From contig NC_091142.1 in NCBI RefSeq assembly GCF_041381155.1, positions 24,824,362-24,888,361 on the forward strand: DNA of 64,000 nucleotides, given 5' to 3'. Positions within the stretch are counted from its first letter, which is position 1. Each line of letters begins with the position of its first letter. Source of the DNA: Argopecten irradians (taxonomy: Eukaryota; Mollusca; Bivalvia; Pectinida; Pectinidae). Below the pieces are notes generated by a model. The model did no database searches. It saw only the letters and a list, made by a program, of their open reading frames with translations, and was not told the DNA's origin. This document shows, in pieces, positions 20,801 to 63,905 of the stretch. The translations under genes were made by a program, and so were the position numbers.

Positions 20801-20849
20801 AAAAGGTCTATATGAGGTCTGTTCCTAGCAAATGCCCTCGAAGATCGGG

Positions 20850-28962: not shown

Positions 28963-29079
28963 ATGTATGGTAATGGCGAATCGAGTTTTGAAAAATATTT
29001 GGGACTTAAGGAAACTGTTTGTTGTTATCCTCGCACACCCCTGGTATTACTTCCTATTGTCTTTGCTGCTGAAGGCCAG
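28963..29079 (+). pseudogene. Gene A exon 1
   Basis: The ATG opens 39 codons (MYGNGESSFEKYLGLKETVC ...) ending TPLVLLPIVFAAEGQ before a CAG|GTGAGA donor, in phase 0. It aligns with gene B exon 1, which ends [15 protein letters not shown]. The start is chosen because it is the only ATG in the frame that gives the family N terminus. Confidence 0.75.
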
Positions 29080-29139
29080 GTGAGAAGATAAATGTACTCG
29101 GTAGATATAGTGTCATTTGGCTTGTAAATTCTGGTCACT

Positions 29140-29865
29140 TTCGCCTTACCATGTATAACAACATTTTTGCAGCAACATAATTTCGCGTTGCCATGTCTTA
29201 CAACATTTTTGCGGCAACTTAATTTCGCGTTGCCATCTCAAACAACATTTACGGCAACTTAATTTCGCGCTGTCATGTCTAATAATTTTTTTGCGGTAAC
29301 TAAATTTCGCGTTGTCATGTCAAACAATATTTTTGCGGCAACTAAATTTCGCGCTGTCATGTCTAATAATATTTTTGCGGCAACTAAATTTCGCGTTGTC
29401 ATGTCAAACAATATTTTTGCGGCAACTAAATTTCGCGTTGTAATGTCTAACAACATTATTGCGGCCACTTAATTTCGCGTTACCATTTGTTACAACATTT
29501 TAGCGGCGACTTAATATTACGCTTCCATGTCTTAAAACATTTTGACGGCGACTTAATTTTGCGTTGCCGTGTCTAACAACATTTTGACGGCGACTTAATT
29601 TCGTGTTGCCATCTGTTACAACATTTCAGCTGCGACTTGATTTCGCGTTACCATGTCTTACAACATTTTAGTGGCGACTTAATATTGCGTTGCCGTGTCC
29701 AACAACATTTTGACGGCGACTTATTTTCGCGTTGCCATGTCTATCAACATTTTAGCGGTGACTAAATTTTGCGTTGTGATGTCTAACAACATTTTTGCCG
29801 CGACTGAATTTCGCGTTGTCATGCCCAAAAACATTTTAGCGGCGATCCACTTTCGCGATATAGAA
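29140..29865 (+). repeat. 42-bp minisatellite in gene A intron 1, about 17 copies
   Basis: The unit contains aacaacatttttgcggcaac and taaatttcgcgttgtcatg, with a 42-bp period (for example 29293 and 29335). Since 42 is 14 codons, a periodic frame stays open on both strands (MSNNIFAATKFRVV on plus, LVAAKILLDMTARN on minus). The frame starting at 29695 runs on through the intron into exon 2. There is no evidence that any of this is translated. Confidence 0.92.
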
Positions 29866-30974
29866 TTATGCAACTCATATACATGTAGTTCTATTTTACC
29901 TGTGATAAGAACATTTTACCCAGATTTATTTAACTCACAACATACGCGAAATTTAAGCACACGCAAAAATAATTTGCTTAACAGTAATAGTTTTACAACG
30001 TTCTATACCTTCTATATTTTACAGAAGGCGAAATGTGGCTTTGTAATTCTGTTGGTATCTGTATTTTGGATCACAGAGGCTTTGCCCATTGCCGTGACAG
30101 CACTGCTTCCTGTAGTGGTGTTTCCTTTGGTTGGAATAGCAAACGCTAAAGATATATCAACAGCGCATGTGAACGTATGTGTTTTGCTTCTGTAGAGGGT
30201 AGTGTCTGTCAAGTGTTAGCGTATAGCAGATTATTTTCACCATTTAGGGGGATTTTTTTTAAACATATTTTATTGTGTAATTTTTATATACAATGAGATT
30301 GAGCACAAGTTTTCCAATTTAGCAGGATAATGACGTATACTATGACCGCAAAGCTTCGACCAGCAAAATATAGGAAAATGGTTGAATAATAATTATACTC
30401 GGACAGTCAGATCGCAAAAATTCAAAACCGATACATTTGTAAAGTATATATATTTTTGTTTGATTTAAAATTGCGAAATACTTGATACGAGTAAATAACA
30501 GTATGAAATCAGTAAGAAATGAAAAAATGGGAACAAAGGAAGGTGTCCTTGTCACAATTTAATGCATCCAAAATAATATTTTTGACATATATACTTCACA
30601 AAGATATCCTATGGACGCTTGGGAAAAGAAACTTTTATTTTACACAGGAGTTGAAATGCAGTTCACACGCTTTATATAATTACGTAATCTCACTAATACA
30701 TGTTTCGTAACCGCGGTGAACATTACCGATGACATCATCAGTTTTGACGCATAGCGACGTATTTTGGGATGAAATACGACAAGTCTCGTGTTGATAATCC
30801 ACGACATTACACTCGGGTTGAGATATCCGTGTCCACTTGACACACATATTCTACCCATCATATTGGTGTCTAAAATACTCATCATGCGACTGACTAAGAA
30901 AATTATGTTTATGACAAGATGCTGCATCAATCAAATAAGCATTTTCAAACAATAATCCTTCAGAGGGAGAAATT

Positions 30975-31192
30975 TAAACAGTACAAATGTCTGTTCCTTT
31001 ACACAATTTTCGGCCTCTTGGTACATGGAAACAAAAACCCAGCTTTGTAAAGCCCATCTTATGTTAAATCATCCATCTTGAATTCATTAAAAAGTTCAAG
31101 ATGGATTTTACATAGTTGGTTTTTGGTTCCACGTACCCGAAGATGGCCGAGAGCCCGAAAATTTGTAAAGGACTTTGTACTGTTTTAAAGGT
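30975..31192. repeat. Fold-back element in gene A intron 2
   Basis: The left arm cctttacacaattttcggcc and tggaaacaaaaaccca pairs with the right arm tttttggttccacgtacccg and gagcccgaaaatttgtaaag. The inner part atccatcttgaatt pairs with gttcaagatggat. It ends 40 bases before exon 3. Confidence 0.8.
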
Positions 31193-32076
31193 ATTGATGA
31201 ATAATTTATGTACATCATTGTTTTTACTCTAGGACACATCCATGTTGTTTGTTGGGGGACTCATCCTTGCCTACGCCATAAAACGCTGGAACATCCACAA
31301 GCTGTTCGCATTGCGAGTCCTCCTTTGGTTTGGAGCGGAGCCTCACTGGTAAAAACATCGTTTTTCTTCTTATTGTGTAAGATTGACTAGATTTTTTGTT
31401 ACTGCAGTTTTGCTGGGAAAATAGGTTATGCTTCGAATTGCTTTGAATGGGGAAACTATGGGCCAGATGTTACGGATTCCGTTGATTTTATTTTAAAGCT
31501 TATACATGTAGATAATGATTTTAATTAAAATGGGCGTAGTACTCATGAGACAGCCGTTATAAGAAAAATCACATTTTCCCTTGTTTTATAATGACAATTT
31601 TATTCTTTCACTTTCATTGAAATGTCAAATTTATCTTCTCCCCGTTCGTTCTGATGTACATATGAAACAATGATATCGTCGAGAAAGTCGTGCAAGGAAA
31701 TTTATTCTTCATACAAAACGTGGTATGCAACCATTGTATAGAGTGCATTCCTAAAGTTTATATTCTATTTTCAGTTTTCCCCAGGATAAAAATGTGTGTT
31801 TTACATTAATTGTGCAAAATTTTCATGGTGAAATTTCTTCAGATAATTGCCTCACAAATATCTTACAAAGGCGTTTCTCGTTACCTAGAATAATTGGCTT
31901 GTTATTTCAGGAAACGATAATCATAGAACTACCTGCTATATTACCGTTCAAGTATACACAATCCATCCCAGCAACATGTATTTAATAAAGGTTTTTTTTC
32001 ATTTTCACAGATAAGTTAGGTTATTGTTTATCAAAAATATATCAATAGCAAATTACCTGTGATATTACTGTTCTAG

Positions 32077-32225
32077 GTTGATGCTAGGGATGATGATTCC
32101 GACTTGTTTCCTCTTTATGTGGATGAGTGATACAGCCACATCTGTAATGATGTTACCCATACCTAACGCGGTACTTGTACAACTGAAACACGCCCATAAA
32201 GCCGAAAAAGATGCCTCCTGTACAG
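32077..32225 (+). pseudogene. Gene A exon 4 with altered first SNT motif
   Basis: It encodes LMLGMMIPTCFLFMWM then SDTATSVMM. The Asn of the SNT motif, part of the first sodium site in this family, is Asp here (codon GAT at 32129-32131); gene B keeps SNT. The acceptor is ttctag and the donor ACAG|GTAAAA. Confidence 0.85.
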
Positions 32226-33445
32226 GTAAAATGATCATCCTTCAATATCTTATCACAGACAATTACTGTCATATGTACATATTTTAGTTGTTATCTTATT
32301 GTAGCACTTTTCGCACCAGAAAGTATGAGCTAAATTATGATTGCCTTAACTGTATTTCTTACGTTGTTTATATCTTTGGCCATTATGTTGAACGCGCGAA
32401 TTCATCATTGCACTGTTAAAAGTTATTCTGTTGAAACCCACATTTGCATTGAAATTTAATTTGGGGAAAATAAGTACAGTTTGCCTTATTGGTTCAAAAA
32501 TTACTTTACTTCAATTTACTTTAACGGTATTTATTACATCATACTTTCAAACTCAAAGAAAATATTTAAAAATTAAAGTGAAATACTGTAATCCTTCACT
32601 TTAGGAATCTAATACAGATAAAATGTTACCGTATAGCCGTGGACCAAATTTTCGCGATTTGATCTTAAAACGAGAAAGTCAAATTTTAAAGGTTTTAAAA
32701 ATGTTCGCGATATAGATATAAGGTTAGATATCATTCAACCAGGTAATACTATTTCAGACAATATAAAGTAGCGGATTGATTTCCAGTCGTGCGTCAAAGT
32801 ATGATAAAAACGAATGTAAATATTATTTGTATATTCATTGTATATATATTATAAAAAAGATAACGCTGACCAAGACTCGTATTGGAAACAAGATACTCAA
32901 CATGTGTCAATGGACGCATATTCTTCCGAACAGAAAGCCAGAACCGCAGAAAATGGAAGGTAGGTGTTATTTTAAGTTGTTTCCATCGCGAAAGAATTGT
33001 CATCACTACTGTTGTCATGATAAAGATTCAAACTAAATTAATCAAAGATATCAACATAAGCAAAATTCAAAAGTTATATGACATCCCCTTGAACGAGACA
33101 TCACACCTCCTCTACATGTTCAGATTCTGTCCTTCTCTCTGATTTTCCGCTGATTCTACTGTACAAAGAAACATATGTTAACAAAACAGAAATTAAAAGA
33201 CGTCTGAAAGCTGAAATCGAAAAACCTAGTTTGTCGTCAATGTTACAACCACAAAAGTTGGCAGCCTCCATCGACAAACTTAAATTAATTCAACCTCTTA
33301 CAGTTAAATAATTGCATGAATATATCATCCATATTGTTTTCCTTTTTGGTTTGCATTTGATTAAATTTACATTTAATTTTTGTATGACTTACTAGTTTAG
33401 ACATGAAACCTTTGGACTGATAGGGAATGCCTTATCAAAAAAATA

Positions 33446-34008
33446 GTATTTATCCTGCAACTGTCCTACATACTGACCGATAACTACTGCCGGATAAACT
33501 TGTGCTTTATCCGTCAATACGAAATGCTTTATCCGTCAGTACGATCACGTGAATTTGTTCCATATCTGACGGAACTTTTTCTAACTTGACCCAGAACTTG
33601 AACCTTCCGGTGAATGAAACGTCATTCAGTCCCGCTAAAACGTGACGTCACATTCATCGGAATGACGTCATTTTTACGGTATCCAAAATCTCGTATGGCG
33701 GTGTGGTTTTTTTTCTTGACTCATGACAAAGGTATGTATTGCAAAGTAATTCTTAAATGGGTTTATATTGTTTTTTGAGTATTTTCATATTGTTTCAGTG
33801 ATATATTACACTGCATGGATTTACGGATGGTGTGTGTGAATGGGCTTGTTTATTTCCCACGGCAGTAAAACAGAGTACACTCTCATTCGGTTTAGTGAAT
33901 GAATATTTACCTCCGCATCAAAGAAGCGTCACGCTTCGAGCGAAACCAACTAAATAACTGTAAATTTGCTTTCGTTTTGAATGCCATAATAGTTGCAGGA
34001 TAAACAGA
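33446..34008. mobile_element. Possible TIR element in gene A intron 5
   Basis: TTTATCCTGCAACT at about 33452 recurs inverted (agttgcaggataaa) at about 33992. The inside has gacgtca-rich and tttatccgtca words. Boundaries are uncertain. Confidence 0.4.
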
Positions 34009-34017
34009 ATACACGAT

Positions 34018-34127
34018 TAGTATCTTACAATACAAGTTCTATTTTGGTGCTCGACACGGAAAGCCGAGATGCCTCGTCATCTCGGCTTTCCTAAGTCTCG
34101 CACCAAAATAAACCTTGTATTGTAAGA
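34018..34127. repeat. Perfect-looking hairpin 60 bases before gene A exon 6
   Basis: agtatcttacaatacaag, ttttggtgc and ggaaagccgagatg pair with catctcggctttcc, gcaccaaaat and cttgtattgtaagatact, leaving a loop of six bases. In the pre-mRNA this would put a long stem just upstream of the exon 6 acceptor. Confidence 0.88.
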
Positions 34128-34186
34128 TACTAACCATGTATTCTCTTTGTAGTATTTTCTAAGAAAAACACATCCATCTTTTGTAG

Positions 34187-34356
34187 TGACGAGGAAAACC
34201 AAACCCACCAGGACCACCTGACGCTATGCAAGGCTCTGTGTTTGTCAATCTGTTATGCTGCTAACATAGGCGGCATTGCGACCTTGACCGGTACTGGGGT
34301 TAACGTCATCCTGAAAGGTCATCATGAAAGGTCATCATGAAAGGTCAAACAGACAT
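34187..34356 (+). pseudogene. Gene A exon 6 with frameshifting 13-bp repeats
   Basis: The segment [20 protein letters not shown] matches gene B. The 13-mer gtcatcctgaaag (34305) is followed by two copies of gtcatcatgaaag (34318, 34331) before the expected gtcaaacagacat and donor GTGAGT. The two extra units (26 bases) shift the frame and give TGA at 34338-34340. The exon 7 phase fits only the unexpanded form, so the expansion is the later event. Confidence 0.88.
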
Positions 34357-35453
34357 GTGAGTGCATTCATTTCGTCAGTTCCATGGTATCTTAGCGTTTT
34401 ATTAAAGTATGTTAATTAATTGTTATATTTTTAATATATAAATGATAAATGAAACAAATAAAATATTTAAAAATGTAGAATAAACCCTGCCATAGAGACA
34501 ACCCCTGTATAGCTGCTTAATAAAAAACATCTTGCTAGTGTCCGCAATAAGTTACTTTCAACAGACCTGTGTAGAAACACAATTTGGTTATGAAGACTAT
34601 TTGATCCTTGAATGGTCTATATAGACAGGAGTGGCTCTAGTAAAGTTACTTCCTCTATGATAACTATGTTTGTTATATGTTAGAAGAGGTATACTGACAC
34701 TGGAGGAGATTGTGAGGTGGATGATCAGTTAACAAATATCAATATAACAAGGAGGATTAGAAGACCGTTTTCATGACAGCAAAAGAAATCTTTCCACATG
34801 CTCCTTATCGTACTGAAAATGTATGATTACCAAGATATGTTGATATTTATTTTACGTATTTATTTTCAGACTATTTCAGAAATATAAATTGGAAAATCCT
34901 ATCACGTTTACATCTTGGATGCAATATGGCGTCCCTATAACCATCATACTCCTATTTATGTCAGGGATCTGGCTGGTAGTATATTTCCTTGGATTAAGGT
35001 ACGGCATTTTGTACTAATATAACGCAATAATCATATATCAATGTTAATCTTTCGCGCAGCATCATCTATGAAAACAAGGAAACGTTAAAAAGTCCAAATG
35101 TATATTCATATTAAAAATGCATATTACACCTACCAATGGCATAACATGTAGGCACTGCAATGAACTAGTTCTCTCGATGACTTAATTTTGTATTTTATTT
35201 CTTAACGACATTTCCTTGGCGATCTAATTCCGTGACTTACATGTAATATGTACCTGTAATAATCTTGTATACGGAGATATACTTTCGCATACACTAAAAA
35301 GTGAACGACGCGAAAATAAATCGCAAAAGAACTCAATCATACCAAATTAGAAGTTTTGAGAAAAAAAATACTGAATGAATTTGCGACACGTATTTTTATT
35401 CTTTGACAGGATAATTTAATTTGAAATAATAATGTGTTGATTATAATCTTCAG

Positions 35454-35540
35454 GTCACTGTGCAAGAAACAACCAAAGGAAACCACATTGGAGATAAGAA
35501 ATGTTTTGCAGAGGGAGTACGATGCCCTAGGTTCGGTTAG
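35454..35540 (+). pseudogene. Gene A exon 8 with lost splice donor
   Basis: The acceptor atcttcag leads into SLCKKQPKETTLEIRNVLQR and EYDALG. At the expected end, gene B has ATTAC|GTAAGT; gene A has GTTAG|TTAAGT, a G-to-T change in the first intron base. The nearest GT (gttagt at 35536) would shorten the exon by five bases and break the frame in exon 9. Confidence 0.8.
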
Positions 35541-35926
35541 TTAAGTTATATGGTATCATGACATACAATTTCTGTGGCAGTTAGTAACACTCTTTCCTTA
35601 TTGGTATTATAATGTCAAGTACCTTTACATTCTATAGTCTTAAAAAATAAAACTAACTAAAAGAAATTACGCCGAAACAATTATAATTTGTACCTGATCG
35701 ATAAAACCATACAATGTATAGATTTTGTTGTTGAATTTACCAATTTCATGCTTCAGGTTTGCCCAGGGTGCAGTTATCACCCATTTTCTGGCAATGTCCA
35801 CTCTTTGGATAACTCGTGATCTTGGCGGTGTCGGTGGATGGAAGAATCTATTCCCAGAAAAGTACCATTGATTTAAGGCACAAATCATATTTTATAACGC
35901 AGTTGAAATCTATATTTGAGATTTAT

Positions 35927-36170
35927 ACAGTCGACCTCCGGTAATTCGGACGCCGATAGTTCGAAAAACTCTCAGTCCGGACGGAAATTTTAAGGGAAAT
36001 GATTACCTAAATGTTACATATTGACTAAGAATACAAAATACGACTGTGAATTCGTAATCCGGACGTTTTAGACTAAAATCGAAGGTGTCCGGATTATCGA
36101 AGGTGTCCGGATTATCGAAGGTGTCCGGATTATCGAAGATATCCGGATTATCGAAGGTTCGCTGTAGTAC
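35927..36170. mobile_element. Pogo/Tigger-like MITE with 18-bp expansion
   Basis: The left end tacagtcgacctccggtaat and right end ttatcgaaggttcgctgtag are inverted repeats flanked by TA. Inside the right part gaaggtgtccggattatc repeats about four times (36079-36160), an expansion of the inverted-repeat sequence. It lies where gene A exons 10-11 should be. Confidence 0.6.
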
Positions 36171-37265
36171 GATAGAGTATTCAGTAACACAGAGGTAGCA
36201 GTCTACGTCATTGATCGGTTGTATATTGTTGGAAAGACGACCATTTTGTATCGCCTCGCATGTAAATGTATAATTTTAATAAGTCATCTTTAATGGCAAT
36301 TGGTACGAATTTAAAGGACATGTGTCACGGAACGTAAATAAACATAATGAATATACGTATTATGATATTTATTTCACACAATGCAGTATTTGTTTGAATA
36401 CCTTGTCCATATTTTACAATCGTGCCCGTAATATATCAGATTACTAACGAACGGCGATGTTAATATGACATATCGAACCACAAACACATTAAATTGGCAG
36501 TGTTTTCCTGGTAAAATAGCCATTTGAAAATTGGGACCATGTTTTATTACTTAGCAACGTAGATTTGTTATCCAGCTTAAACATTTGCAAATAAAAGAAA
36601 AAGAATAAATTTCACGTTTTCAACTAATCTGATAATAAGATTGTCATTTGCAAAAGAAAATAAGAAATTATTTTGATAATTTGAATTATACTACATAAAT
36701 GATAGAACGAATAAACGTACCCGGCCTTCTATACCTTTCAGCCGGGTACGAATTGGTCCCTATGTGTCGTAGTGGAGCACTGCCTCCGAAAGTCACTCGG
36801 GCACTGTTTTCTATATTTTTGAAGGTTTCCAATTATTTTATGCGTGCATGCATTTACATATAAGTTTTGTCCAAAACAAACATAACTACCGTTCTTAATA
36901 TCTACCTTACCGCTCACAAGACGTCAAATTCACAATTTGTGAACTTGCCGTCTAAATTCCCTTCAGAAAAACCTTCATATATGTGTTATATAAAAAATGC
37001 CTCGATGAGAATTTGATATTTTATGTGGTTCAATTGAATTGCCTAGTAGGTAAGCGATATCAAACAAGTACGTATAAATGCAAACAAACGTTTTATAATG
37101 GTTTGAATAATCATTACTATGCTCCATTAGCAGTAATAGGCACCAATTGTAGCTCTTAAGACGACACCATTCTCTGTCTAAAAGTCTTTTGAGCTACAAT
37201 ATTGCAGTACATAAATGATATTAAATATTAGTAAGGCATTCTTTGAACTATTGATCACATTACAG
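36171..37265. other. Gene A intron where two exons are missing
   Basis: Both strands were read for a counterpart of gene B exon 10 ([20 protein letters not shown]) and exon 11 ([19 protein letters not shown]). Neither appears. The stretch is AT-rich non-repeated DNA. Confidence 0.7.
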
Positions 37266-37433
37266 GAAACTGGCTTGTCAGACTGGATAGGGGACAAGCT
37301 GTCTGTATGTAGTGGTCTAGATATATGGGTTCTCAACCTAGTCCTCAGTTATATTGTTGCTGGCTTCACTGAAGTGGCCAGCAACAGTGCCACAGCTACA
37401 TGTACACTAATGCTGCCGATTTTAGCACAAGTG
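37266..37433 (+). pseudogene. Gene A exon 12 with altered second SNT motif
   Basis: GLSDWIGDKLSVCSGLDIWV through SYIVAGFTEVASNSATAT to TLMLPILAQV. Gene B reads [13 protein letters not shown]. Gene A has SNS and two extra codons (gccaca gctaca at 37389-37400, a near 6-bp duplication) in the segment that forms the second sodium site. Confidence 0.85.
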
Positions 37434-37571
37434 GTTAGTTAGTGTAAACTTTCTGTGACACTGTACTCCTTAAACATGTATAATTTGACGATAATGGTAT
37501 TTTTACCGCAAGAAATTTCACGATAAAATATAATTGGGTTATTTTATTTTCTACACAATATCAGTATAGCT

Positions 37572-38232
37572 TAGACTAGATTGCCTTTCGTAGTTTTTCT
37601 ACTCTCCGTTAGGCTTCGCTCCGAAAATACAACGACAGGTCAGGGCTATCGATCCTGGAAATTGATTGGCTAATATTTATAACGTTCAGGGGATATTCCT
37701 TTTCAAAATGGCGTCTGTATATTTTCGCCAAAAAAATAACAACATTCAATTTTTGAATTGCTGACCTCTAGTCTGCTATACAATGGTAAATGGTAATCAA
37801 TATTAAGTATTTATTGGTGGAAAATAACTTAACATACTATTTGTTGCGTATTGGTTGTTTGAAACGCGAAATTGTCTTTTGAAGCAGAAACTCAGGGGTT
37901 TTCCGGTACACACATAATGACGTCAGTGTAATTTATGGAACTTCAGACTTCAGAAATCGTAACGTTCTTAAACTATTTCAAATACCTTTTCAATGCTGAA
38001 TGCATCCTAGACAATATCGAAATTTTATTTCCACCTCGTTGCTATTGTAAACAGAAGGGAATTTCGTGTCATAATGAACTCAACGATTTGCTAATTTGAA
38101 TTGACCAATCAGAATCATTTTGGTCAGGATCTTGACCAAAATGGCGGCCATGACCTGTCTTAGTATTTAAGAGCGCGCGCAGCCTAGCGGAGAGAACTGG
38201 TACTAAGGCGGGTAACCCAGTCTACGGTATGG
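37572..38232. mobile_element. About 660-bp element with 45-bp TIRs in gene A intron 12
   Basis: The left end tagactagattgcctttcg and ctctccgttaggcttcgctc pairs imperfectly with the right end gcgcagcctagcggagagaa and aaggcgggtaacccagtcta. The inside has no recognisable transposase. Confidence 0.6.
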
Positions 38233-39654
38233 CTATTATTGCGAATGCGCGAATTCATCACTGCGATAACCTATTGCTTTTGAGTTAATTTTTTTTACAA
38301 TATTTACAATATCTTCTACTCAGTAAAGTATATCCTGAAGCGAAAAAATATGGAAATAAAGAAGCTCAACTTTTTTGTACAGAACTGAAACACCAAGGTA
38401 TATATTGTTTACCGATAATTGGAAAATAAAATTCAATTTGTCCATTACATGTTAATATCAAAATACTTTCCTTGTGTAATTCTTTATTCGCCACCACTGA
38501 AAAATCAAAATGCCATGCTATTGATATGGGATTGTTTTCAATATGAAAGTAAATGTTCAAACGCCTGCTAGCAATTAACTAAACATTGAGAAAAGGCGCA
38601 TTATATACCCTTATATATACAGATCATATACTTTTGTTTAGCTCGGTTGAAGACCACTACAGCTATATACATGATTATATGATTTAGCGTTCTTATAATT
38701 CGTATGAATTATAGTATGAAAACCATTAATAGTTTTGCAGATTTTCATATCGCAATCAAAAATATCAAAATAAAAATAATGTTAAAGAGAAAAAGGTTAA
38801 ATAAAGCTCTGTTGTCCTGCTCTTACTGTAATTTAAAATTAAATTTTGTTTCGTTGTCCATTTTAATACATTTGGTGTTTACGTTAACAGTAAGGCCCTT
38901 GTTGTTTAAGGAGCATTATATTTGAATTATTTTGTGTATAGTAGACTAGATTATCTGATTTATTGATACACTCTTTTGTTGCTAAGAACAAAGTTGATGT
39001 GAATTTACTTATAATCGTGCAATAAGCTACTCATAGGGCTGCCATAAATGTGCCTTTATATTGACATCTAATTTTACAACAATATAAACATATCGGCTCT
39101 CTTTATTACACAAGACTTGATGTCTTACTGACTATAATGAGGGGCGTGTGTAAATATGGGTCCCTGAGCAGAGATTGATAGCAAAAACAACAAATAGATA
39201 CGTGCCATATATCTATTTACGTTTTCGTATATATGAAACTCACGTTTAATATCTTTGGTTTATGAGGTAATAAAGTAATGCTCTTTGTGCTCATTCCTCT
39301 TTCTCTAGAAATCAATGTGGCTATAGATTATCTGTGTGTTCTACATAATGTTTGGAATATAGTTTTCTGTCAAGCGGGCTTTTAAAAGTTCAGTTAAATG
39401 TACGCCAAAAATAGCGGTTCAGTTAAGAAATCTTGAGCAACTCGCTTTTTTTCTTTTATCCTTCTCCTTGCTAGTTTCACACCTGAAATCATTTTGCGAA
39501 GAAGAATATAATAGAAACAAAACCTATTTTAAGCTAGATATATCTACAATAATAATAACACAAAATGAGTTACAACTTTGAAAAAAAATCAATAATATTA
39601 TTTTAATATTAATTTTATTAATCTGACATATGACTTATATTTTGCTTCTGACAG
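38233..39654. other. Gene A intron 12, remainder
   Basis: AT-rich with no exon, repeat or RNA gene recognised; a 73-codon frame at 38704-38925 has no support. Confidence 0.4.
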
Positions 39655-39792
39655 GCTTTGAAGTTGGAAGTAAATCCGCTATATTTGGTCCTTCCGGTCA
39701 CGATAGCAGCCTCAATCTCGTTTATGTTACCCGCAGCTACACCGCCCAATACTGTGGTGTATTCATATGGATATCTCAAGGTCATTGATATG
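39655..39792 (+). pseudogene. Gene A exon 13, family signature region
   Basis: LYLVLPVTIAASISFMLPAA then TPPNTVVYSYGYLKVIDM, 46 codons, phase 0 at both ends, the same length as gene B exon 13. The sodium:sulfate symporter signature is nearly kept, but has Ala where Leu/Ile/Val/Met follows the Pro. The end of this exon seeds the 47-bp array. Confidence 0.85.
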
Positions 39793-40643: not shown

Positions 40644-40860
40644 GGAATACATCCACATGGAAAGGAGATAAATCGAGACACTATCCCTAGTATCAAAGGC
40701 CTCCAATATGGCGGTATTACAATCGGTAACAATACGAATATAGTCTCCAAAAACATGCATACCGAACACATGGAAGGCCGTACTTAAATGGCCCTGACTG
40801 TATGTATGACGTTAATCCGATCAATCAACCAACCGACTATTTATAGTATTCTCATTTCAG

Positions 40861-52900: not shown

Positions 52901-55900
52901 ATGACGTGAGTCCTTTATTACATAACGTTGATATAAAAGGTTGATGCTTGTTATGACGTGATTCCTTTATTAAATAACGTTGATATAAAAGGTTGATGCT
53001 TGGTATGACGTGAGTCCTTTATTAAATAACGTTGATATAAAAGGTTGATGCTTGGTATGACGTGATTCCTTTATTACATAACGTTGATATAAAAGGTTGA
53101 TGCTTGTTATGACGTGCGCCCTTTATTATATTATGATTGATAAAAAAAGTTGATGCTTGGTATGACGTGAGCCCTTTATCAAATAACGTTGATATAAATG
53201 GTTGATGCTCTATATGACGTGATTCCTTTATTACATAATGTTTGTTATAAAAAGTTAATGCTTGGTATGATGTTCCTTTCGTGATTCCTTTATTATATAA
53301 TGTTTGACATAAATGGTTGATGCTTGGTACGACGTAATTCCTTTATTATATAATGTTTGACATAAATGGTTGATGCTTGGCACGACGTAATTCCTTTATT
53401 ATATACTGTTTGACATAAATGGTTGATGCTTGGTACGACGTATTTCCTTTATTATAAAATGTTTGTTATAAAAGGTTGATGCTTGGTATGATGCTACCTA
53501 CGTGGTTCCTCTCCATGTGGATAAGCAACACGGCCACCACAGCCATGATGATCCCCATAGCTAACGCAGTGTTGGTCCAGCTACGAGATGTTAAGGAAAT
53601 GGAGGAAACGACGGACCAACCCGAATTAAATGGTGGGTATACAATACTAGAACCACACAATATGAACCATATTATACCATATTTTAAGTTCTTACATCCG
53701 TGACAATACAGTATAAACATTCCATGAAAGTGTTGTTTTCACGACAGATTATTATAATTTGCATATTACAGAGTTATCTGTCCCTGTGGGTACATGTATG
53801 TGTTGATTGTGACATTATGTGTTTGCGAGCGTAACCTCATAGTTTATCTCATAAAATAATGATGTTAAATGATACTGACGCGCAAGTGATTTAACTGTAA
53901 CCATAGTGAATACAAGCCTCAATTTACCGCTCGACTAGAGAGAACTTCTCTTTAGCTCGATTGGTTGAGCATCAGACTAGTAACCAAGAGGTCCCGGCAG
54001 AGGCAGTGATTATATATCAAAACATGCGCTGTGTTACATAATTATGTAATATGCAAAGATGGAATACCTTAGGACATTTAAAAATATAGCTTAAATTTCC
54101 ACCAAAAAATACACGTAGACTTTTTTTAGAAAATTAGTCGTTGTGTTTTATGTGTCCTTCGGGTACATTTCTTCGTTTATAGCAGTCCTGTTGGATCTGT
54201 CTAGACACATAATATTTCCTACGTTTAAGAATGGGATACTTATTTGCGTAATACTCTGTGTGGGTTTGAGAAAAACAAGTATATAAATTATTTTACATCA
54301 TGAATGTTATCCGTTCATGTTTTAGATTGAAACATATTCCTGATTCTTTCATTACAGGTGTCGATAACAAGGCTCTCGAGTTGGAAAGTGTTACCGTCAC
54401 CGAAAAACATAACGGATCTGTTAATAATGATACAGCTCGACAGGAACTTAAAACGTAAGCCGCATTCCACAAAGTAAACGATCCGATTTGTATCCCCATT
54501 TCTTTGATTGAATATATCATTAATATGAAAGCTTATAAGATTTTAAATAGCAAAATTTGTCATTTTTTTCTGATTAAATGAAAACAACATTTCAACAATG
54601 CTTTGTCTTAATTTTGGTTTATTATTTAAAGATTTTATTTTTCATAGCTCACTTCAATATATTTTTAATGTGAGTATCAAATGGTATCAGGTTATGCTTA
54701 AGTTGATTGGGTGCATAGACGTTCTATGTATTGGTGTTCTATTGGGTACATCTACTGTCCTGGTGAGTATGTTGTATATATCGGTACATTTATCAAATAT
54801 CATCATATTTTTATTGCAAGGTATTATTTGTGACATTATAATAAAAATGACAATAAATGCCATTTAATTAGTCCAGATCGACAATAAAGTTCATGAAATT
54901 GATTTTATTTCAGTTCCACATCTGAGGATGGATCTAGTTCTATGGATGACGACAAGTCCGGAGCTGAGCACTTAAGGATGAGTAAGGCACTATCACTGGC
55001 TATCGCCTACTCGGCCAATGTTGGAGGTATAGGCAGTCTGACGGGAACTGGACCTAACCTCGTCATGAAGGGACAGAGCGACATGTAAGTCATCCACTAT
55101 AATACGTATTTATACGATAATTTAGAATTTCCGACTGACTTTTTATACCGTATATAACAACGAATATTCGTTGTGATATTAGGTGCCGCGGTGGCCGAGG
55201 GGTTAAGATGTCCCGACATATTACTACAAGCCCTCCACCTCTGGGATGCGAGGGGCAGTTGCCAGGTACTGACCGCTGGTCGTTGTTTTTTTCCGGGTAC
55301 TCCGGCTTTCCTCCACCAACAAACCTGGCACGTCCTTTCATGACCCTGACTGTTAATAATCCTGACGATAAACTGAAAAAAAACAATTGTGAAAATATTT
55401 CGATGTTTCTTCGTGGGTACTGTATAACCACAAATTAAACAAAACGAAATAAGTCTTATATTGTATACATTATTAGAATGACTGTTTCGTAGGAAACTAC
55501 GGATTTTGCTACACACGACATATTTAAATAAAGCATTAGAAAATAAACACACGAATATTCCATGTTAAATAGTATTCCCCATATCAATAGGACGGATAAG
55601 GATATTCTGTCCGAGGGTCTCAAAATTTAGTAAAATCCCAGGATTTAATTGTAAGTCCAACTATTTGCGTCCTATACAAAAATATCAACATGGTTTCTGA
55701 AATTGAGAAAACAACCTTTTTGTAAACGCCGTGACGTCACGAGGTTATATTGCATGAGTGACCATGTAATCCAGCATCAGACGACATGCATTGCATGGGA
55801 TAAACCAGTGTTACACCCGTAGTTAGGAGAGAGTAAGAACTCAAATGAGAAATATGTACTGTATTCCGTATTTGCATATTACTGAATTATCTGTCTTGCA

Positions 55901-58900
55901 TGCAGGTATTGATTGTGACTTCATATCTTTGCGAGCGTAACGTCATACTTTTCAGAGTAAACTTTTCACGTAAACTGCGCTCAGAAAATAATGACTTAAC
56001 AATCGATACCTACCCGTAAGGGAGCTAACTGTGTAGTATGCAAAGACGTAATCTATCTGTGCTAAAACAAAGGTTATTTTTTATTATTAAGTAACATGAA
56101 CTCTGTATACAGTGTGTTTCAGAAGTATGGTGCTGAGTCTCCAATTACCTTTGCTTCCTGGATGCAGTTTGGACTTCCTCTTTCTGCCATCTGTCTTGTC
56201 ATACTTTGGATATGGCTACAAATTTACTTTCTACGTTGTAAGTAAGTATCCCATTATGAGATATTGGTTTTACTATTAGTTTTGATTTAGTACTAAGAAC
56301 GTTGGTTTTGATCATGAAGACGTAGTGATATCAACTGTACATTCTTTTTCGTTAATGATTATGAAATATTATCATTTGCCTATTTTTATGAAGAGGAACA
56401 ACACATGTTTCATTTGTTTTGTCGAGACATAGCCTTTTTAAAAGTGGTAGTTTCTTCTCCCGCTGATGTCGAAACACAGTCTCTTGAAAAGTGGCGGTAT
56501 CTACTCCCACCGATGTCGAATAACAAGCTCTACAAAAGTGGTAGTTTCTTCTCCCGCTTCTGTCGAAACACAATCTTTATAAAAGTGGTAGTTTCTAATC
56601 CCGCCACTGTCGAAACACAATATCTATAAAAGTGGTAGTTATACTCCCGCTGCTGTCGGAACTACTCCCGCTGCTGTCGAAACACAATCTCTATTAAAGT
56701 AGTAATTTCGTTTCTACTCCCACAGCTGTCGTAACACAATATCTATAAAAGTGGTAGTTCTACTCCTGCTGCTATCGGAACTACTCCCGCTGCTGTCGAA
56801 ACACAATCTCTACAAAGTGGTATTTTTTACTCCCGTTTCTGTCGAAACGCAATCTCTATTAAAGTGGTAGTTTCGTTTCTACTCCAGCTGCTGTCGTATC
56901 ACAATCTCTATAAAAGTGGTAGTTTCTACTTCCGCTGTTGTCGAAACTACTCCCGCTTCTGTCGAACCACAATCTCTATAAAAGTGGTAGTGTCTATTCC
57001 TGCTGAATACTTAGCATTTTTTTATTGTTTTCAGTATAACATGAGTTGATGGTTTGATAATCTGTGTCTCTGGCAAATGAAAATCCAAACATACTGCAGC
57101 CACCCAAACACTTAACTCTATTACCACATCAGCAACATGCCATTCAAACGACACACATTCAGTGGTGTCTTTACTCTAAACCAAGCCGTTTTTAAAGCAT
57201 GTTTATTGATTTATCGAAAGCTCATGAATAAGTTTCGTTTGTTTGATATTGGACAAGGAAGTAATTCCAACCGTGTGGACAAAAGAAATGTCAAATTTTC
57301 GAGGCGATATGCCCCTTTATCAAGACACACAAAACGAACACGGTTACATAAAATGATATAAACAGTACTACCAGTGGTACGGGACAACGAAAGAAGATAG
57401 ATTTAATATTGATATAGATAGTACTTTGTAGTTGTTTGACTACTTGTTAACGTCTTAGCAACAACACATTCCGTCGTTCATTGTGAGTAATATACGCTAC
57501 GATTGTTTGCTTACATTTGCATGTTCTTGTCGTTAAATTCGAACTCTTTTGTCTTAAGTAAACACAACGGTCGTATAGTGATAAGGATTACAATATACAC
57601 ATCCTATCACATAGGGCCTCGTAAATAGCCCAGTCACTAAATGACCCTGATGAGAGTTAAGTTGTACTACACTATACAATGTATCTTATAAAAAGCATCC
57701 TGTGTACCTTGTGTAAGTTCTTAATACCTTAAATATATATATATGCATTAATGATAAGTTCAGCCTGCTATTCACAACCATGGTCATTTGAGGACATTCA
57801 GGGTTTAGGCTGTGAAGTAAAACCGGGGTGTACAAGGAGAAAAAACCCATTAAATGCCTTAAATAAAAAAACCGCATTTAAATTGGCAAATTGTTTTGAC
57901 GACAAAATCGAACGATGATGTACTAATAGTTTTCCTTTTATCCATGTTCTATGTACTCTAATTCATTACTCCAGATCCTGTTTTAGCTGTTGCCACAAAC
58001 AGGATAAAAACACGTCTAGGCAGGTGACTGAGGTACTTAGGAAAGAATATGATGCCCTAGGCCCAATTACGTAAGTTCTGTTCGTTTTCTTTTAAATATT
58101 TCTTATGTCTGTTTTGCATCACTTCGCCAAGCAGAGGGAAGTGCGTTCAAGAGAATTAAAATGAGTGTGAAATACTACTACAAATGTGTGTCTATGTTAC
58201 TGGAGTTTGTTAGTAAAGTACACGTACTACATCTTTCAGTCGGATCGTTAAAGTATTAAAGCAGAGAAAGAAATGGACAAAAATATTAGAATCATTTATG
58301 AAAAAGCATGTATAATAAAAAGGGCATACTTTTCTGCAATAATTTGTGTAATGCATGCAGAGCTGTTGAGTTTACTTGAATTATTAGAATTACCGTATTC
58401 GACCCAATAAGTGGCAAAAACAAATTTGGACTTGCTTTGCAAAAAATCATTGTACAACGTAAGTCATATACATATATCAATTTGCAAAAGAAATCGGTAA
58501 GAAAACCAACAAAGTTTTCTCTTTTTCATTCGGCATTTAATTCAGAGTTAGTGAAGCCTAAAAAGGGATAGGGCGCTTATTGGGTCGAATAGGGTTAATA
58601 GATATTGATTTCTATATATATTACAATATTTTCACTGTTTAAAAGGTTTGCCCAGGGAGCTGTGCTAGGTCATTTCTTGTTGCTAGTTATTTTGTGGATA
58701 TCACGTGACCTGGGCGGAGTTGGTGGATGGGGAGACTTGTTCCCGCCAAAGTATGTGCACGTGTTTAAATTAGTTGTAAGGTGGTTTAAACTAAATTTAT
58801 GATTACTTTATTTAAATTGTATTGTATGTAGGTTTTATTTATATGTATGTGGTTTGAATTATATATTTGTTGCTTTAAATACATAGATGTTTTTAAATAA

Positions 58901-61900
58901 CATATTTGTTATTAAATAAATATATCGTTTTGTTTCTTCTTCTTTTTTGTAAATGGATAAAACTTTTTCGTGATTTTTGCATCAAATATGATAAGTGTAA
59001 AAATGCAGATTATGTATATAACTTATCAACGCAATCGTCTATGAATAGACATAGAAGGGCGAACAAGGTGTTTGGTGCATTAGGTTTTATCAAGTGTTAA
59101 CCGAAACCGAAATCTAAAACCCTATTTTAAATCGTCATCGGGACGACCGTAAACCTCAGAAAGCCTCAATGTTTCAATGAGATTGAAATAATGGCATATA
59201 CATTTATCTAAGATTGTCCACACCGAGATATCGCTGCATGATGATTTTCAAATATCTCTATATCGAATTCAATAATAAGACCATACTAAACAGTAAGTGG
59301 AAATCCTTTTCAGTCTGTGAGCTAAACTACGTGTTTTATTATGTGTATTGCAACAAAATATCCATTAAGCGAACCATCATTCTGAATAATGCATGTTGAT
59401 GAGCAGTGCATCTGCAGTTGGCGCAGTGTACGGTACATGTAACGACCTCGGAAAACAGTTATGTGGTCAATGTACGAAAATTTATACCGAATCACCTATT
59501 ACACGAATAGCCTGCACGTAGGCCATAAATTATATTGACATTTCTTAAAACGTAAAATCGTTCAAATGTCTCATATGACTATGCGATCTAATGGGCAAAA
59601 TATTCATTACGATATTTAACTGTGAAATGCATTCCGACAGAAAATGAATATATCAGATACATGGGAAGCACTTTATATTATAATTGCAAATAAGAACTTC
59701 ATCAGCGTAAGTTCTAAAAAACATTGCTCATTTTATTCAATTAAAAAAATGTGAATAGTGCCCAAAACAGACATTTATAAGAGCCGCGTTATTAAAATGG
59801 TTATTAGCTTAAGTATCTTCAGCTGAATTTGTAATCATCTTTTGAACAACCTAGTTCTGTAACATGATTGAAGTCAGAATTATGGTAGTGATGTTTTGAC
59901 GCATATCAGCTACACCTCGGTATTGGATAGTGGACTTTAAAATATAAGGATTTGCAATGGCTTAAAATTTAACGACATTCGATTTCCAGAACTGTCACAG
60001 ATTCTACTCCGTCCATTTTGATATCTGCAAGTCTTTTCCTGTTTCCGTCCGAAGTACCTAGACTTTTCCGGTGTGGAAAGGACGCTCACTCCATTAGTGA
60101 GAGCAAAGGTCTGTAGCTGTTTATTTTCAGTTTGGTAATACTCAATATCGTCGTCAGAAGTTTTTACTTTTAATTGTAAATTGCCATGAATCTGATCTTT
60201 GGATTAATTATAGCATTACCGACAGAGACAGTGGTGTGGCGATAGAAATATGTCACACAATGAAATCAATTCTATCATGTATAGAGGTTCATGCATCCCT
60301 AGGTTAGTTTTTATTTAGTTATAATCCTACTGAAAATATATGGACTTCTGGCCAATTTTAATTCTCACTTACAAAAAATATTTCAAATTCTAATGATCAA
60401 ATTTGAAATGAAAGGAATGTTCTGACATTATCATTAAGTATATAATGTATATTTCTGCAAGCAGGCTCTAGTTATCATAAAAGATGCTCCAACGCCGACA
60501 GAGCATAAACGATACTCATCATTTGAGCAATAGATGGTGTTAAATCGTGTATCTATATGTGTCCAATTAACACAAAAATGATAAAACTAAATTATTTGGC
60601 TTTTGTGCAATGACATTAAGTACTTCATATAGGACATTATGCCATGGATTTTTTTCGGAGTGCAATTGATTGTTTTCTATATACTTATATTGAAGGAAAA
60701 TTAGAAACTCTGACCCCAGTGTAGCATCTTTCACGATACATGTAAATTCAATACAACATTTTAGATAAGTATGATCTTGCTATCTCGACTGTGACATGTT
60801 ACATATGAAATACTTTCCTCTATATTTTAGCCAGTACTAAGGAAGTAAAGCCTTTAATGTCATGGAAAGTAGTGGAAAAATCAATTCCATGGGGCATCAT
60901 CTTACTGATCGGTGGTGGATTCGCTTTGGCTGACGGAAGTCAGGTAAGGAAACATGTTGTCAAAACACCACGAAGGAACGAATTATATGAACATTTTTTG
61001 GCGATGAAAGAATTACGTATAGCACGTCTGACGTCTTCATCAGGTGTCTTTATTTTGAATATTAGCGCATTTGTAGTTGACATTATCACTCTGGTAAGCA
61101 TAATGCTTGTACAATCCTCCACCTTTGTCTTTCAACCATATAGTTGATTGATATCCCAGTGGATTCTATCACTGTCGATGTCAAACCTGGACTATGTCTT
61201 GGCAAAGCTGGAGGCATTTCAGAAAAAAATATCTTACCAATACTAGGCCTAAAGTGACTTCCTTTGAAGAATGCAGAACGAAAAGCCAAAGATACATAGA
61301 AGAACCACAAAACTTTTTTCTCACAAGGGCGATACTAAACTCGAAGTCAAAAGTGTGGTGATGTCAAAAACCACGTCAAGAAGACAATATAACAAATTTA
61401 GTTGCATTTTACCATCACGCAATGGTTGGTAGCATGAACGATTAGAATTAAGTCCAAACTGCAGGGTATTGTATCAACTTACTGACTCCGTGAGACTCGA
61501 TTTAGCCAACAAAAACAATAGCGATATAATTTTTATCAAGCAATTGGATTATTTTATTATTTTATTTTTAAGCAATCCGGATTGTCCTCCTGGCTTGGAG
61601 ATAAACTGACGGTGTTCAGTAGCTTTGATCCCTGGGTAATGAACTTGATACTTTGCTACATAGTAGCGGCTGCTACAGAGGTCACCAGCAATACGGCTAT
61701 CTGTACACTGATGATGCCTATCATGGCCGAACTGGTAAGATGGAGAAAAATGCATTTATATCCAAGTGTTTCAGAAATACTAAAAAGTAGCAACTTGTTT
61801 AGATGACATGAATATGTTGGAAAAGTATAGCATAAAATCTATATATGGATGTAGATATAAAAAAATGGTTAAAATCGTAACATGAATGTTTTATGTTTTA

Positions 61901-63905
61901 AAATGATGTTTAAAGATAAATATAAGGCCAAATTTTATATATTATAAAAAATAAGCATTTAATTATGGCCAATATGGAACGTCTAGATCAACTTATTTCC
62001 GCGTGCGTATTTCGCAATCGATTGGATAATGAATTATGTTGTTGCGAGCATATGTTGGTATACACTACTAGAAGGATAAAAATTGAATCACTTTTTATGT
62101 CAACAACGAACAAAACCAGTCTGCATTAACGCATAGAAATATAACTTCAATATGAGAAATCATTTCGGTTATATACTACCATGTTAATTTTTCGTTGTAC
62201 TGTAGAAGGGGATAAACACATTCAGTTTAAATTAATGGTAATGTTAATATGTAATATATGTTCTAAATATTAATTCATTATGGACTTTAAAGGGTCCGAA
62301 ATGGTGGTCAGAGACTAAAACTAGTAATATGTAATTTATATTTCAGGCTAGAACTAGTTATATGTGATTTTTATTTCAGGCTAGACCTGGTAATACGTAA
62401 ATTATATTTCAGGCTAGACCTGGCAATACGTAATTTATATTTCAGGCTAGACCTGGTAATATGTGATTAATATTTCAGACAGGAACTAGATATATCTGTT
62501 TTATATTTCAGACTGGAGCTAGTAATATGTTATTTATATTTCAGGCAATAAAGTTGGGAGTGAATCCATTATATTACATGTTCCCTACCGCCATCGCCAC
62601 GTCGTTCGCGTTCATGTTACCGGTGGCCACGCCCCCTAACGCTGTCGTATTCTCCTATGGTTACGTCAAGGTCATTGACATGGTGAGTTTGACACGAAGT
62701 GGTGATCTTATTTAAGTTTTTCCGCGCCAAAAATGAACTTAACTATTGAAACATTAACAGAGTTTTTTTCTGCATATCATTGATTGATAATGTATATTTT
62801 TTGCACGTGTGTTATTGATAAAGCGTGTATTTTTTTATTATTATTATTTTTTTCGTTTTGTTTATTTTTTGTGTTTTTGTGTCTCTTATTCTTAAGTTTT
62901 TAATTGCCTTTTTAAATTTTGTTTCTGTCTTTTAAAGAAGACATGTTTACCTTGGCTAGCCGTTGTCATCTTTTCTCCAAATGATAATAACAGGACTTAC
63001 TTTTTAGGACACTCGTTCTTATTTTCACGTTGTTTATATTTTGAAGGAAAATTGTTTTATTTCAAGGAAGTTTTGTTGAATCATTACATGTGCTAAAATT
63101 TTAAAATCCATGTAAAATTCTGTCAATGACAAACACACAGGAAATTGCAATTAATTTATGAAAAATCACTTTCGTTACCTATATCAGTAGTGCTTTGTAG
63201 TGAATGCCTCCAACTGATTATTTGCAAGTCATGTTTGCGGATTTGTGGAGCATACATGATCAGATATTTAGATCCTGGTTAACATAATTAAACCTATCAA
63301 ATTAGCTCTGAAGCCTCCCATAAAATAGAAATGTAGCCAAAAGTTAGAAAATAAAATAACAATCACAAATATGCTAATGAAGTCAACATGAACACGATCA
63401 AAGACTCATGATAACCAAATTACTCGGACCAGAAAAATAATATATCAAGAAAATAATACCAGGAAAATAAATATGGATGCATCAATATAGATGTGCAAAT
63501 GAAATATACATATTCATAATTTTAGAAAAGAATTATCAGCATTGAAAACCAATTATATATTTCTTTCTTTCAATAAAGATATTCATTTTTCTCTACCAAA
63601 GAATTACGGAAAATGGTTAACTAATCTTTCCAACAGCGTTTGTCAAGAAAATTGATATTTTCATTTGGAAGTAAATCAAATACATATTCGCATTGCAGGT
63701 CACGGCGGGTTTCCTCATGAACATAGTTGCAGTATTGGTGCTAATTGGAGCAACAGAATCTTGGGGAGAAAGCATTTTTCATTTCCACACGGAGCCTGAC
63801 TTTTTCAAAAATTCTACCTTACTATTGCAGAACAACACAATAATGAACTCAACCACTTCGTGTATTTGTCCTAATGTGACACTTCCCTTTAACAGTACTG
63901 TATGA
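43921..63905 (+). CDS. Gene B: intact SLC13-family sodium-coupled anion transporter
   Basis: Fourteen exons: 43921-44034, 46949-47098, 49294-49409, 53475-53632, 54358-54454, 54914-55084, 56113-56241, 57975-58070, 58646-58750, 59990-60108, 60831-60943, 61573-61734, 62545-62682, 63699-63905. All introns are GT-AG, phases agree, and the sum is 1875 bases (624 residues), near the usual size for SLC13 members. Key residues: SNT at 144-146 and 495-497 (sodium/substrate sites), and the sodium:sulfate symporter signature [17 protein letters not shown] at 529-545. The tail has five N-glycosylation sequons. The protein would be a plasma-membrane symporter moving dicarboxylate, citrate or sulfate with sodium. 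[17 protein letters not shown] looks closer to the carboxylate than the sulfate branch, but substrate is inference. The introns carry large tandem arrays at the exon 3, 4 and 13 acceptors. Confidence 0.95.
44185..44335 (+). repeat. Short AT-rich tandem repeat in gene B intron 1
   Basis: ataaaataatatcaaagtca and ttccatacc recur about six times with an irregular period of 27-40 bases. Confidence 0.75.
44948..45135 (+). mobile_element. tRNA-derived SINE, copy with intact B box
   Basis: Head tcgcggtggccaaatggtta (A box), then gtgcgagttcgaatcccatg (B box GTTCGAATC at 45016-45024), and the body gccaggtactc, cctggcacatc, ctggctgataatag. This is the best-preserved RNA polymerase III promoter among the copies. 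It lies in gene B intron 1. Confidence 0.85.
45136..46948. other. Gene B intron 1, remainder
   Basis: A CT-rich tract (about 45703-45750) and AT-rich DNA; no exon or RNA gene was recognised. Confidence 0.4.
46949..47098 (+). CDS. Gene B exon 2
   Basis: Residues 39-88: a membrane segment with the strongly conserved [20 protein letters not shown]. It has phase 0 at both ends and the same 150-base length as in gene A. The acceptor is gttgacag and the donor ACT|GTAAGA. Confidence 0.93.
47600..48715 (+). repeat. 23-bp minisatellite, about 48 copies, gene B intron 2
   Basis: The core caggacatatctccgttgtt recurs every 23 bases (for example 48672 and 48695). Sixteen of 23 positions equal the exon 3 acceptor junction of gene B; it is closer still to gene A exon 3 (caggacacatccatgttgtt). 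Because 23 is not a multiple of 3 and units lack stops, long periodic frames exist on both strands (up to 295 codons plus, 262 minus). They are artefacts of the repeat. Confidence 0.97.
48774..49293 (+). repeat. 52-bp array, 10 units, in register with the exon 3 acceptor
   Basis: Units start at 48774, 48826, 48878 and every 52 bases to 49242; the true exon 3 starts at 49294, the next step. Each unit reads tttatttacccag|GACACC then ACCATGCTGTTCCT, an acceptor plus the first coding bases of exon 3, then gtatcacacataattg. The frame through the last units is open into exon 3 (49069-49446). Confidence 0.97.
49294..49409 (+). CDS. Gene B exon 3
   Basis: [20 protein letters not shown] then [18 protein letters not shown] plus TG of Trp127. 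116 bases, the same as gene A. The start is fixed by gene A and by phase, since ten look-alike acceptors precede it. Confidence 0.93.
49803..53474 (+). repeat. 52-bp array of about 70 units, in register with the exon 4 acceptor
   Basis: The unit holds ataaaag|GTTGATGCTTGGTATGAC|gtgagt followed by cctttattaaataacgttg. GTTGATGCTTGGTATGA is the start of exon 4, so each unit copies the acceptor and 17 exon bases. Most units also have a strong donor (ACGTGAGT), 18 bases after the acceptor. Variant units (gagccc, gattcc, atgatgtttg) recur in blocks, showing multi-unit copying. Units near 53210-53470 are the most diverged. Confidence 0.98.
53475..53632 (+). CDS. Gene B exon 4 with first SNT motif
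   Basis: It completes Trp127 and encodes [16 protein letters not shown] then [17 protein letters not shown] and an acidic loop ([11 protein letters not shown]). Ser144-Asn145-Thr146 are intact. It has phase 2 in and phase 1 out. Confidence 0.95.
53757..54064 (+). mobile_element. Palindromic MITE copy 4 interrupted by a tRNA-like SINE head
   Basis: Left part 53757-53905 (tttgcatattacagagttat). A separate right end lies at 54035-54064 (ttatgtaatatgcaaagatg). Between them 53945-53990 reads tttagctcgattggttgagc then atcagactagtaaccaagag, a tRNA A-box and anticodon region. The B box appears deleted, since gtcccgg runs straight into cagaggcagtg. Confidence 0.6.
54358..55084 (+). CDS. Gene B exons 5 and 6, cytoplasmic loop to next membrane segment
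   Basis: Exon 5 (54358-54454) and the start of exon 6 (54914-55084) encode a variable, charged loop ([38 protein letters not shown]). Exon 6 then has the conserved [18 protein letters not shown] and [14 protein letters not shown]. This loop is usually intracellular in SLC13. Confidence 0.9.
55182..55370 (+). mobile_element. tRNA-derived SINE, copy in gene B intron 6
   Basis: Head tgccgcggtggccgaggggt then taagatgtc; body agttgccaggtactgaccgc, ctccaccaacaaacctggca, tgaccctgactgttaat. The B-box segment between gggatgcgag and gggcagttg is deleted. Confidence 0.8.
55869..56046 (+). mobile_element. Palindromic MITE, copy 5
   Basis: tttgcatattactgaattat then gtattgattgtgac; right arm acaatcgatacctacccgta then agggagctaactgtgtagta. 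It ends 66 bases before exon 7 of gene B. Confidence 0.8.
56390..57000 (+). repeat. Degenerate 40-50-bp minisatellite in gene B intron 7
   Basis: aaaagtggtagtttctactc and gctgctgtcgaaacacaatc recur about 13 times with variable spacing. It is not in register with an exon end. Confidence 0.88.
58392..58596. mobile_element. Short TIR element (GACCCAATAAG family), copy 2
   Basis: Left end taccgtattcgacccaataa and right end gggcgcttattgggtcgaat are inverted repeats of about 20 bp. The inside is AT-rich. It lies 50 bases before exon 9 of gene B. Confidence 0.8.
58751..59989. other. Gene B intron 9
   Basis: AT-rich; frames at 58906 and 59214 have no family resemblance and no splice support. Confidence 0.5.
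59990..60108 (+). CDS. Gene B exon 10 (short, found by phase)
   Basis: Acceptor gatttccag, donor AAAG|GTCTGT. It encodes [21 protein letters not shown] then [19 protein letters not shown]. It enters in phase 2 and leaves in phase 1, exactly what exons 9 and 11 need. The VSDAT/TDST-like start and FLFPS end are family landmarks. Confidence 0.9.
60831..60943 (+). CDS. Gene B exon 11
   Basis: Encodes [20 protein letters not shown] then [17 protein letters not shown], the strongly conserved PWGI--L-GGGFALA segment. It has phase 1 in and 0 out. It is missing in gene A. Confidence 0.95.
61573..61734 (+). CDS. Gene B exon 12 with second SNT motif
   Basis: Residues 457-510: [52 protein letters not shown]. 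Ser495-Asn496-Thr497 are intact. Phase 0 at both ends; the acceptor is atttttaag. Confidence 0.95.
62309..62544 (+). repeat. 33-bp array, 7-8 units, in register with the exon 13 acceptor
   Basis: The word ttcag recurs with cag at 62344, 62377, 62410, 62443, 62476, 62509 and 62542, every 33 bases. The last one is the true acceptor. Each unit reads atttatatttcag|gctaga then cctggtaatatgt, so it repeats the polypyrimidine tract and AG, with a possible donor (CTG|GTAATA) ten bases on. Confidence 0.96.
62545..62682 (+). CDS. Gene B exon 13, sodium:sulfate symporter signature
   Basis: Residues 511-556: [17 protein letters not shown] then [20 protein letters not shown] and GYVKVIDM. It fits the family pattern fully. 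138 bases, the same as gene A. Confidence 0.95.
62683..63698. other. Gene B intron 13
   Basis: AT-rich with T-rich tracts; no repeat or exon recognised. Confidence 0.6.
63699..63905 (+). CDS. Gene B terminal exon
   Basis: Last membrane helix ([20 protein letters not shown]), then an extracellular tail with five N-x-S/T sequons and two Cys (CIC), ending TGA at 63903. No AATAAA is seen before the window end, so the 3' UTR continues outside. Confidence 0.95.
   Translation, partial: VTAGFLMNIVAVLVLIGATESWGESIFHFHTEPDFFKNSTLLLQNNTIMNSTTSCICPNVTLPFNSTV

Follow-up and report, generated by a model that had tools for sequence, protein, structure and literature searches.

Tandem arrays that copy splice junctions in SLC13 transporter genes of the bay scallop and their likeness to the mirages of amphioxus

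Why should minisatellite arrays be found at splice junctions in a pair of transporter genes, with copies of the junction in their units? The question is raised by a 64-kb stretch of the 846-Mb genome of the bay scallop Argopecten irradians (C9:24824362-24888361), referred to here in its entirety as the window. One of two SLC13 proteins labelled as Argopecten irradians, P0043, gave 14 exon-like matches in sequence from C9, nine with 100% identity and five with 77-98%. As predicted from the sequence at the outset, the window has two paralogues of the SLC13 transporter family, termed gene A and gene B. The gene B model is free of stops and agrees with its closest protein, P0001 from Pecten, at 527 identical of 618 aligned columns, the junction of exon 5 to exon 6 being weakly supported in the model. 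Gene A is probably a pseudogene, since two homologous exons were searched for and not found in it and a 13-bp triplication throws the remainder of one exon into a different frame. The features of the window on which the argument depends, with the arrays as delineated by TRF, are as follows.

12695..12749, minus strand: 24-bp duplication with a GTAAGT donor-like site, beside an open frame that is a putative exon
28973..40980, plus strand: gene A, SLC13-type paralogue, closest to Pecten P0051
34305..34347, plus strand: 13-bp triplication within an exon of gene A, its end 9 bases short of the donor
39758..40088, plus strand: period-47 array, 7 units, spanning a gene A donor (exon end 39792)
43921..63905, plus strand: gene B, SLC13-type transporter, modelled with 14 exons and 604 aa
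47601..48712, plus strand: array of period 23 with 48 units, immediately upstream of that at exon 3
48734..49313, plus strand: period-52 array, 11 units, spanning the gene B exon 3 acceptor (exon start 49294)
49792..53491, plus strand: array of period 52 with about 70 units, across the gene B exon 4 acceptor (exon start 53475)
62315..62546, plus strand: period-33 array, 7 units, ending at the acceptor of gene B exon 13 (exon start 62545)

In three of these arrays, of period 52, 52 and 47, a genuine splice junction is repeated together with 17-35 bp of exon. At exon 3 of gene B, each 52-bp unit is composed of the final 28 intron bases and the initial 24 exon bases, and the AG is kept in 10 of the 11 units; at exon 4, each 52-bp unit carries the acceptor along with 17 exon bases, the AG being kept in 60 of 70; and the period-47 unit of gene A, made of 35 exon and 12 intron bases, keeps its GT in six of seven copies. 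The frame of gene B is open across exons 3, 4 and 13 if the last acceptor copy is taken. None of the three periods is divisible by 3, and at period 52 the use of upstream copies would therefore shift the frame. Edge units are more diverged than inner units in several arrays, those at either end of the 70-unit array being among its most diverged.

The original prediction had placed the period-33 array in the same class, and here it went too far. This array stops precisely at the exon 13 acceptor, with CAG as the end of the intron and G, the first exon base, as its sole exon content, and it resembles further bases of exon 13 no better than chance allows, scores as high being reached by 2977 of 11935 other windows. 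The period-23 array, which lies side by side with the period-52 array in the exon 3 acceptor region, had likewise been thought to resemble the exon 3 junction, but its score against the first 34 exon bases is equalled or exceeded by 4527 of 11723 other windows, and an origin from exon 3 is not supported. The 13-bp triplication, described as sitting just before a donor, does exist, although it lies within the exon and is frame-shifting. Similarly, the 24-bp duplication with its GTAAGT is present, but the donor that it was said to cover in a neighbouring gene is unproven, as the adjoining open frame matched no Pfam family.

Other features were seen on the same stretch. A thrombospondin type 1 exon (Pfam TSP_1) lies at 11001-11219 on the minus strand, near the donor-like duplication. 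Several long open frames, of up to 188 aa, occupy 19717-21480 on the minus strand, and the four that were queried in Pfam gave no match. An array of about 24 units of 161 bp, matching at 93% and without a known link to an exon, extends from 618 to 4479.

When the unit of each of the three spanning arrays was searched in the genome, with very common words passed over, it matched its own array alone, and a dispersed satellite or a transposon-borne repeat is thus unsupported as their source. The period-23 unit gave 12 matches, 11 within its own array and one, a weak match (74%), on C1.

The arrays had been presented as a feature of this one gene pair, a view that did not survive comparison with four further SLC13 loci (five genes, with 180 kb of their 200 kb covered), three of which, each through one gene, bear junction arrays. 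In the C15 locus, acceptors are touched by arrays of period 32 and 46/23, and a donor by an array of period 89 with 1.8 copies. Acceptors of the first gene at the locus C9a are touched by arrays of period 25, 56 and 36, and those of the C9b gene by arrays of period 25/50 and 56. Among the fetched SLC13 loci, the C7 gene and the second C9a gene have no arrays that touch a junction. The two 25-bp arrays share a unit of 22 exon bases followed by TAG and are located as follows.

C9:9667189-9668145: C9a 25-bp array, 38 units
C9:24543648-24550232: C9b 25-bp array, 263 units

Nine of ten exons match between C9a and C9b at 96.6-100%, the tenth lying outside the fetched stretch, and the flanking stretches are 93-94% identical, by which standard the two genes are recent paralogues; the length of the array would then have changed about seven-fold since they split, a difference between paralogues, with within-species variation outside the comparison. 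Exon content varies among the remaining arrays. The C15 period-32 array stands moderately above background in its likeness to its exon (79 of 4238 windows score equally high). A period-56 array has 11 of 15 bases in common with its exon in register, which is unremarkable when scored at any position, and for the period-36 and the C15 period-23/46 arrays exon content was not shown when scored against other windows.

It had also been implied that there are more junction arrays than chance would provide. In a placement test, the 36 arrays of seven SLC13 gene spans were placed randomly within them, with intrusion into exons of at most 60 bp allowed and arrays wholly within an exon core excluded. 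Arrays touch 10 of 69 acceptors against 2.3 expected (p 0.0002), and the excess persists when the window genes are left out (7 of 46, 1.4 expected, p 0.0005) and when C9b is dropped as well (5 of 38, 1.1 expected, p 0.003); donors across the seven spans show no excess (2 touched, 2.3 expected). In a second test against random windows, acceptors spanned or abutted came to 10 of 76, with 2.1 expected (p 0.00004), and acceptors strictly spanned to 4 of 76, with 1.7 expected, which is not significant (p 0.09); among the same 76 exons, one donor was strictly spanned where 1.4 were expected. The SLC13 acceptor excess thus stems largely from arrays that abut the acceptor.

A coding-potential search for further exons in the SLC13 loci found too few, and 153 exons from other gene families were surveyed, chosen by hand among the places hit in each family: 68 of 121 for SLC6, 41 of 102 for SLC5, 11 of 25 for ABC, 30 of 82 for myosin and 3 of 100 for P450. 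Most are without in-frame stops (L145-L147 were kept despite one each), some come from one gene or from paralogues, a few windows overlap slightly, and the flanks comprise only 200 and 100 bases per exon. The null was given by 8000 random non-exonic windows from the SLC13 regions, in which 1280 arrays covering the pseudo-exon and 169 internal to it were not scored as spanning. Arrays confined to a flank were found at 6 of the 153 exons (3.9%) and at 4.5% in the null, and array density is therefore comparable between the two.

Junction-spanning arrays occur at 10 of the 153 exons (6.5%) against 6.3 expected (4.1%; p 0.10), namely 6 of 68 in SLC6, 1 of 41 in SLC5, 1 of 11 in ABC, 2 of 30 in myosin and none of 3 in P450. 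At a lower score threshold, 11 are spanned where 6.5 are expected (p 0.06). The two sides of the exon are represented by the following survey exons.

Acceptor-spanning arrays: L043, L047
Donor-spanning arrays: L048, L060, L081, L082, L107, L128, L152, L168

Donors account for 8 cases against 2.8 expected (p 0.008), as in L168, where a myosin exon end with its GTGAGT donor is repeated 2.5 times in the fetched stretch, whereas acceptors show no enrichment among the 153 exons (2 against 3.4). Adding the 76 SLC13 exons to the survey brings spanning arrays to 15 of 229 exons (9.4 expected, p 0.05) and touching arrays to 21 (11.2 expected, p 0.004); without the window genes, the figures are 12 of 204 (8.4, p 0.14) and 17 of 204 (9.9, p 0.02), respectively. 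Junction arrays accordingly occur on several chromosomes and in unrelated gene families.

Two further duplications were observed in survey exons. In L167 (C1:42670954-42671424), a 118-bp duplication of 2.1 copies at 81-323 lies over a myosin exon start, its second copy beginning after a CAG provided by the exon itself; since the array covers its exon, it was excluded from the spanning count. In L040 (C1:15692513-15693082), positions 390-474 hold a degenerate 15-bp coding minisatellite within an SLC6 exon, with the frame kept.

Set against random placement, then, SLC13 acceptors and survey donors show an excess, and junctions in general only a weak one. The argument that an ordinary minisatellite would have no cause to take in an exon edge is weakened, since arrays span 4.1% of random windows and 6.5% of surveyed exons. 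Compared with random placement in this minisatellite-rich genome, junction arrays show no depletion, and any enrichment is no more than about two-fold, SLC13 acceptors standing above that.

The reading that best accommodates these observations, to which a probability of roughly 0.65 may be assigned, is that the arrays are mirages, local tandem duplications of short segments that happen to straddle one splice junction, as suggested by units that contain exon, splice site and intron. A short segment across a junction would be duplicated locally in tandem, and unequal exchange or slippage would later lengthen and shorten the array. If the exon-proximal copy were used, the last at an acceptor or the first at a donor, the extra copies would leave with the intron; the mRNA would be unchanged, and a duplication holding exactly one junction could be near neutral. 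Such concealment by splicing would explain why junction arrays are not depleted, in line with the RT-PCR results reported for amphioxus (PMC3087553). In a genome loaded with minisatellites, junction arrays would then be common, and a modest excess at junctions may add to those placed at random. Against this reading stand the SLC13 acceptor, survey donor and pooled touching excesses, which pure indifference to junctions does not explain.

A stronger formulation, that scallop splice junctions are privileged birthplaces of minisatellites, where the same exon edges spawn arrays repeatedly and leave, hidden by splicing, a standing stock of surplus splice sites and would-be micro-exons at about 1 exon in 15, can be offered only tentatively. 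Of comparable but still unlikely standing is the related proposal that the junctions or nearby features (pyrimidine tracts, paused transcription or R-loops, for example) act as mutational hot spots that start tandem duplications. The acceptor excess in SLC13 genes within and outside the window and the donor excess in the survey both speak for a hot spot, as do the two adjoining arrays at gene B exon 3 and the arrays borne by acceptors like those of exons 3, 4 and 13 in more than one paralogue. However, strict spanning in the survey (p 0.10) and in the pool without the window genes (p 0.14) is close to expectation, the likeness of the period-23 array to exon 3 is not above chance, and the enriched side differs, being the acceptor in SLC13 and the donor in other families, which argues against a single boundary-specific seeding agent that would be expected to favour the same side. 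The suggestion that exon-intron boundaries seed repeats is supported only in part: arrays do recur at junctions, but the favoured side is not consistent.

That the arrays are retained because spare splice sites are useful, whether for redundancy or for alternative splicing, was among the options raised at first and appears very unlikely. The AG is kept in 38 of 38 units of the C9a 25-bp array and 254 of 263 of the C9b array, in 7 of 7 units of the period-33 array and in 8 of 8 of one period-56 array, as selection would have it; but most other columns of the 25-bp arrays are conserved too, and young homogenised arrays conserve almost every column regardless. Where ranking by conservation was made, the AG columns stand 45th and 36th of 52 in the 70-unit array and 18th and 16th of 23 in the 23-bp array, so that consistent support for selection is lacking, and the low rank together with the diverged edge units of the 70-unit array is better fitted by turnover through unequal exchange. 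Nor are frame-keeping periods preferred, 6 of 18 listed periods being divisible by 3 (the list omits the 23-bp array and the C15 arrays of period 46 and 89, and counts C9a/C9b pairs once). Lastly, although long tandem regions are often of inexact length in assemblies, an origin as assembly artefacts is highly improbable, given that units differ among themselves within arrays, that the same arrays are found at two paralogous loci, and that junction arrays are found on several chromosomes.

The interpretation of the scallop arrays as mirages places them beside several known systems. In the human CBS gene, a VNTR spans a splice junction. The closest parallel is offered by amphioxus, where mirages are described for Adh3, the globins BflGb6 and BflGb9, troponin C and PGBD5 (PMC3087553, PMC3902484). 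Amphioxus and scallop share a minisatellite-like structure in which every unit includes an exon-intron boundary, an involvement of both 5' and 3' junctions, and the retention of AG or GT in many but not all units; the inner units of amphioxus mirages are homogenised, and no disturbance of splicing is reported in the passages concerned (PMC3087553, PMC3902484). A boundary in each unit was found here for the window arrays of period 52, 52 and 47, for the paralogue arrays of period 25 and 32 and at 10 survey exons, and is absent from the period-33 and period-23 window arrays. The scallop differs in being a mollusc, in having such arrays at about 6.5% of surveyed exons and in array size, with up to 263 units and periods of 25-87, compared with amphioxus units of 10-72 bp in Adh3, 150-160 bp in the globins and 60 and 108 bp in PGBD5. 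Mirages in molluscs were not reported among the matches listed in full-text literature searches (titles and abstract starts), and to the gene-by-gene cases from amphioxus the scallop adds a phylum, a measure of scale and a controlled frequency per exon.

Other parallels are more distant. A human VNTR over an intron-exon junction of FAM20C is said to affect alternative splicing (PMC5941971) and resembles the scallop arrays in its position, but constitutes a single human locus. In plants and green algae, tandem repeats are commoner near intron-exon junctions (PMC3887541), although these have units of 1-50 bp and were counted by distance, with no claim noted in its abstract and passages that units copy the junction. 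Mirages have been proposed as a route to intron gain by tandem duplication (PMC3087553), of which a case is described in potato (PMC4974935); intron gain likewise duplicates splice-competent sequence in tandem, whereas the scallop arrays are seen to lengthen existing introns. The rate of about 6.5% of surveyed exons in a bivalve suggests that minisatellite-rich genomes may routinely carry mirages, and that spare splice sites can accumulate in them without visible damage to the gene. If so, such genomes would supply many natural cases in which to follow the choice of the spliceosome among dozens of near-identical acceptors, and in which to ask whether such arrays yield new exons and introns.
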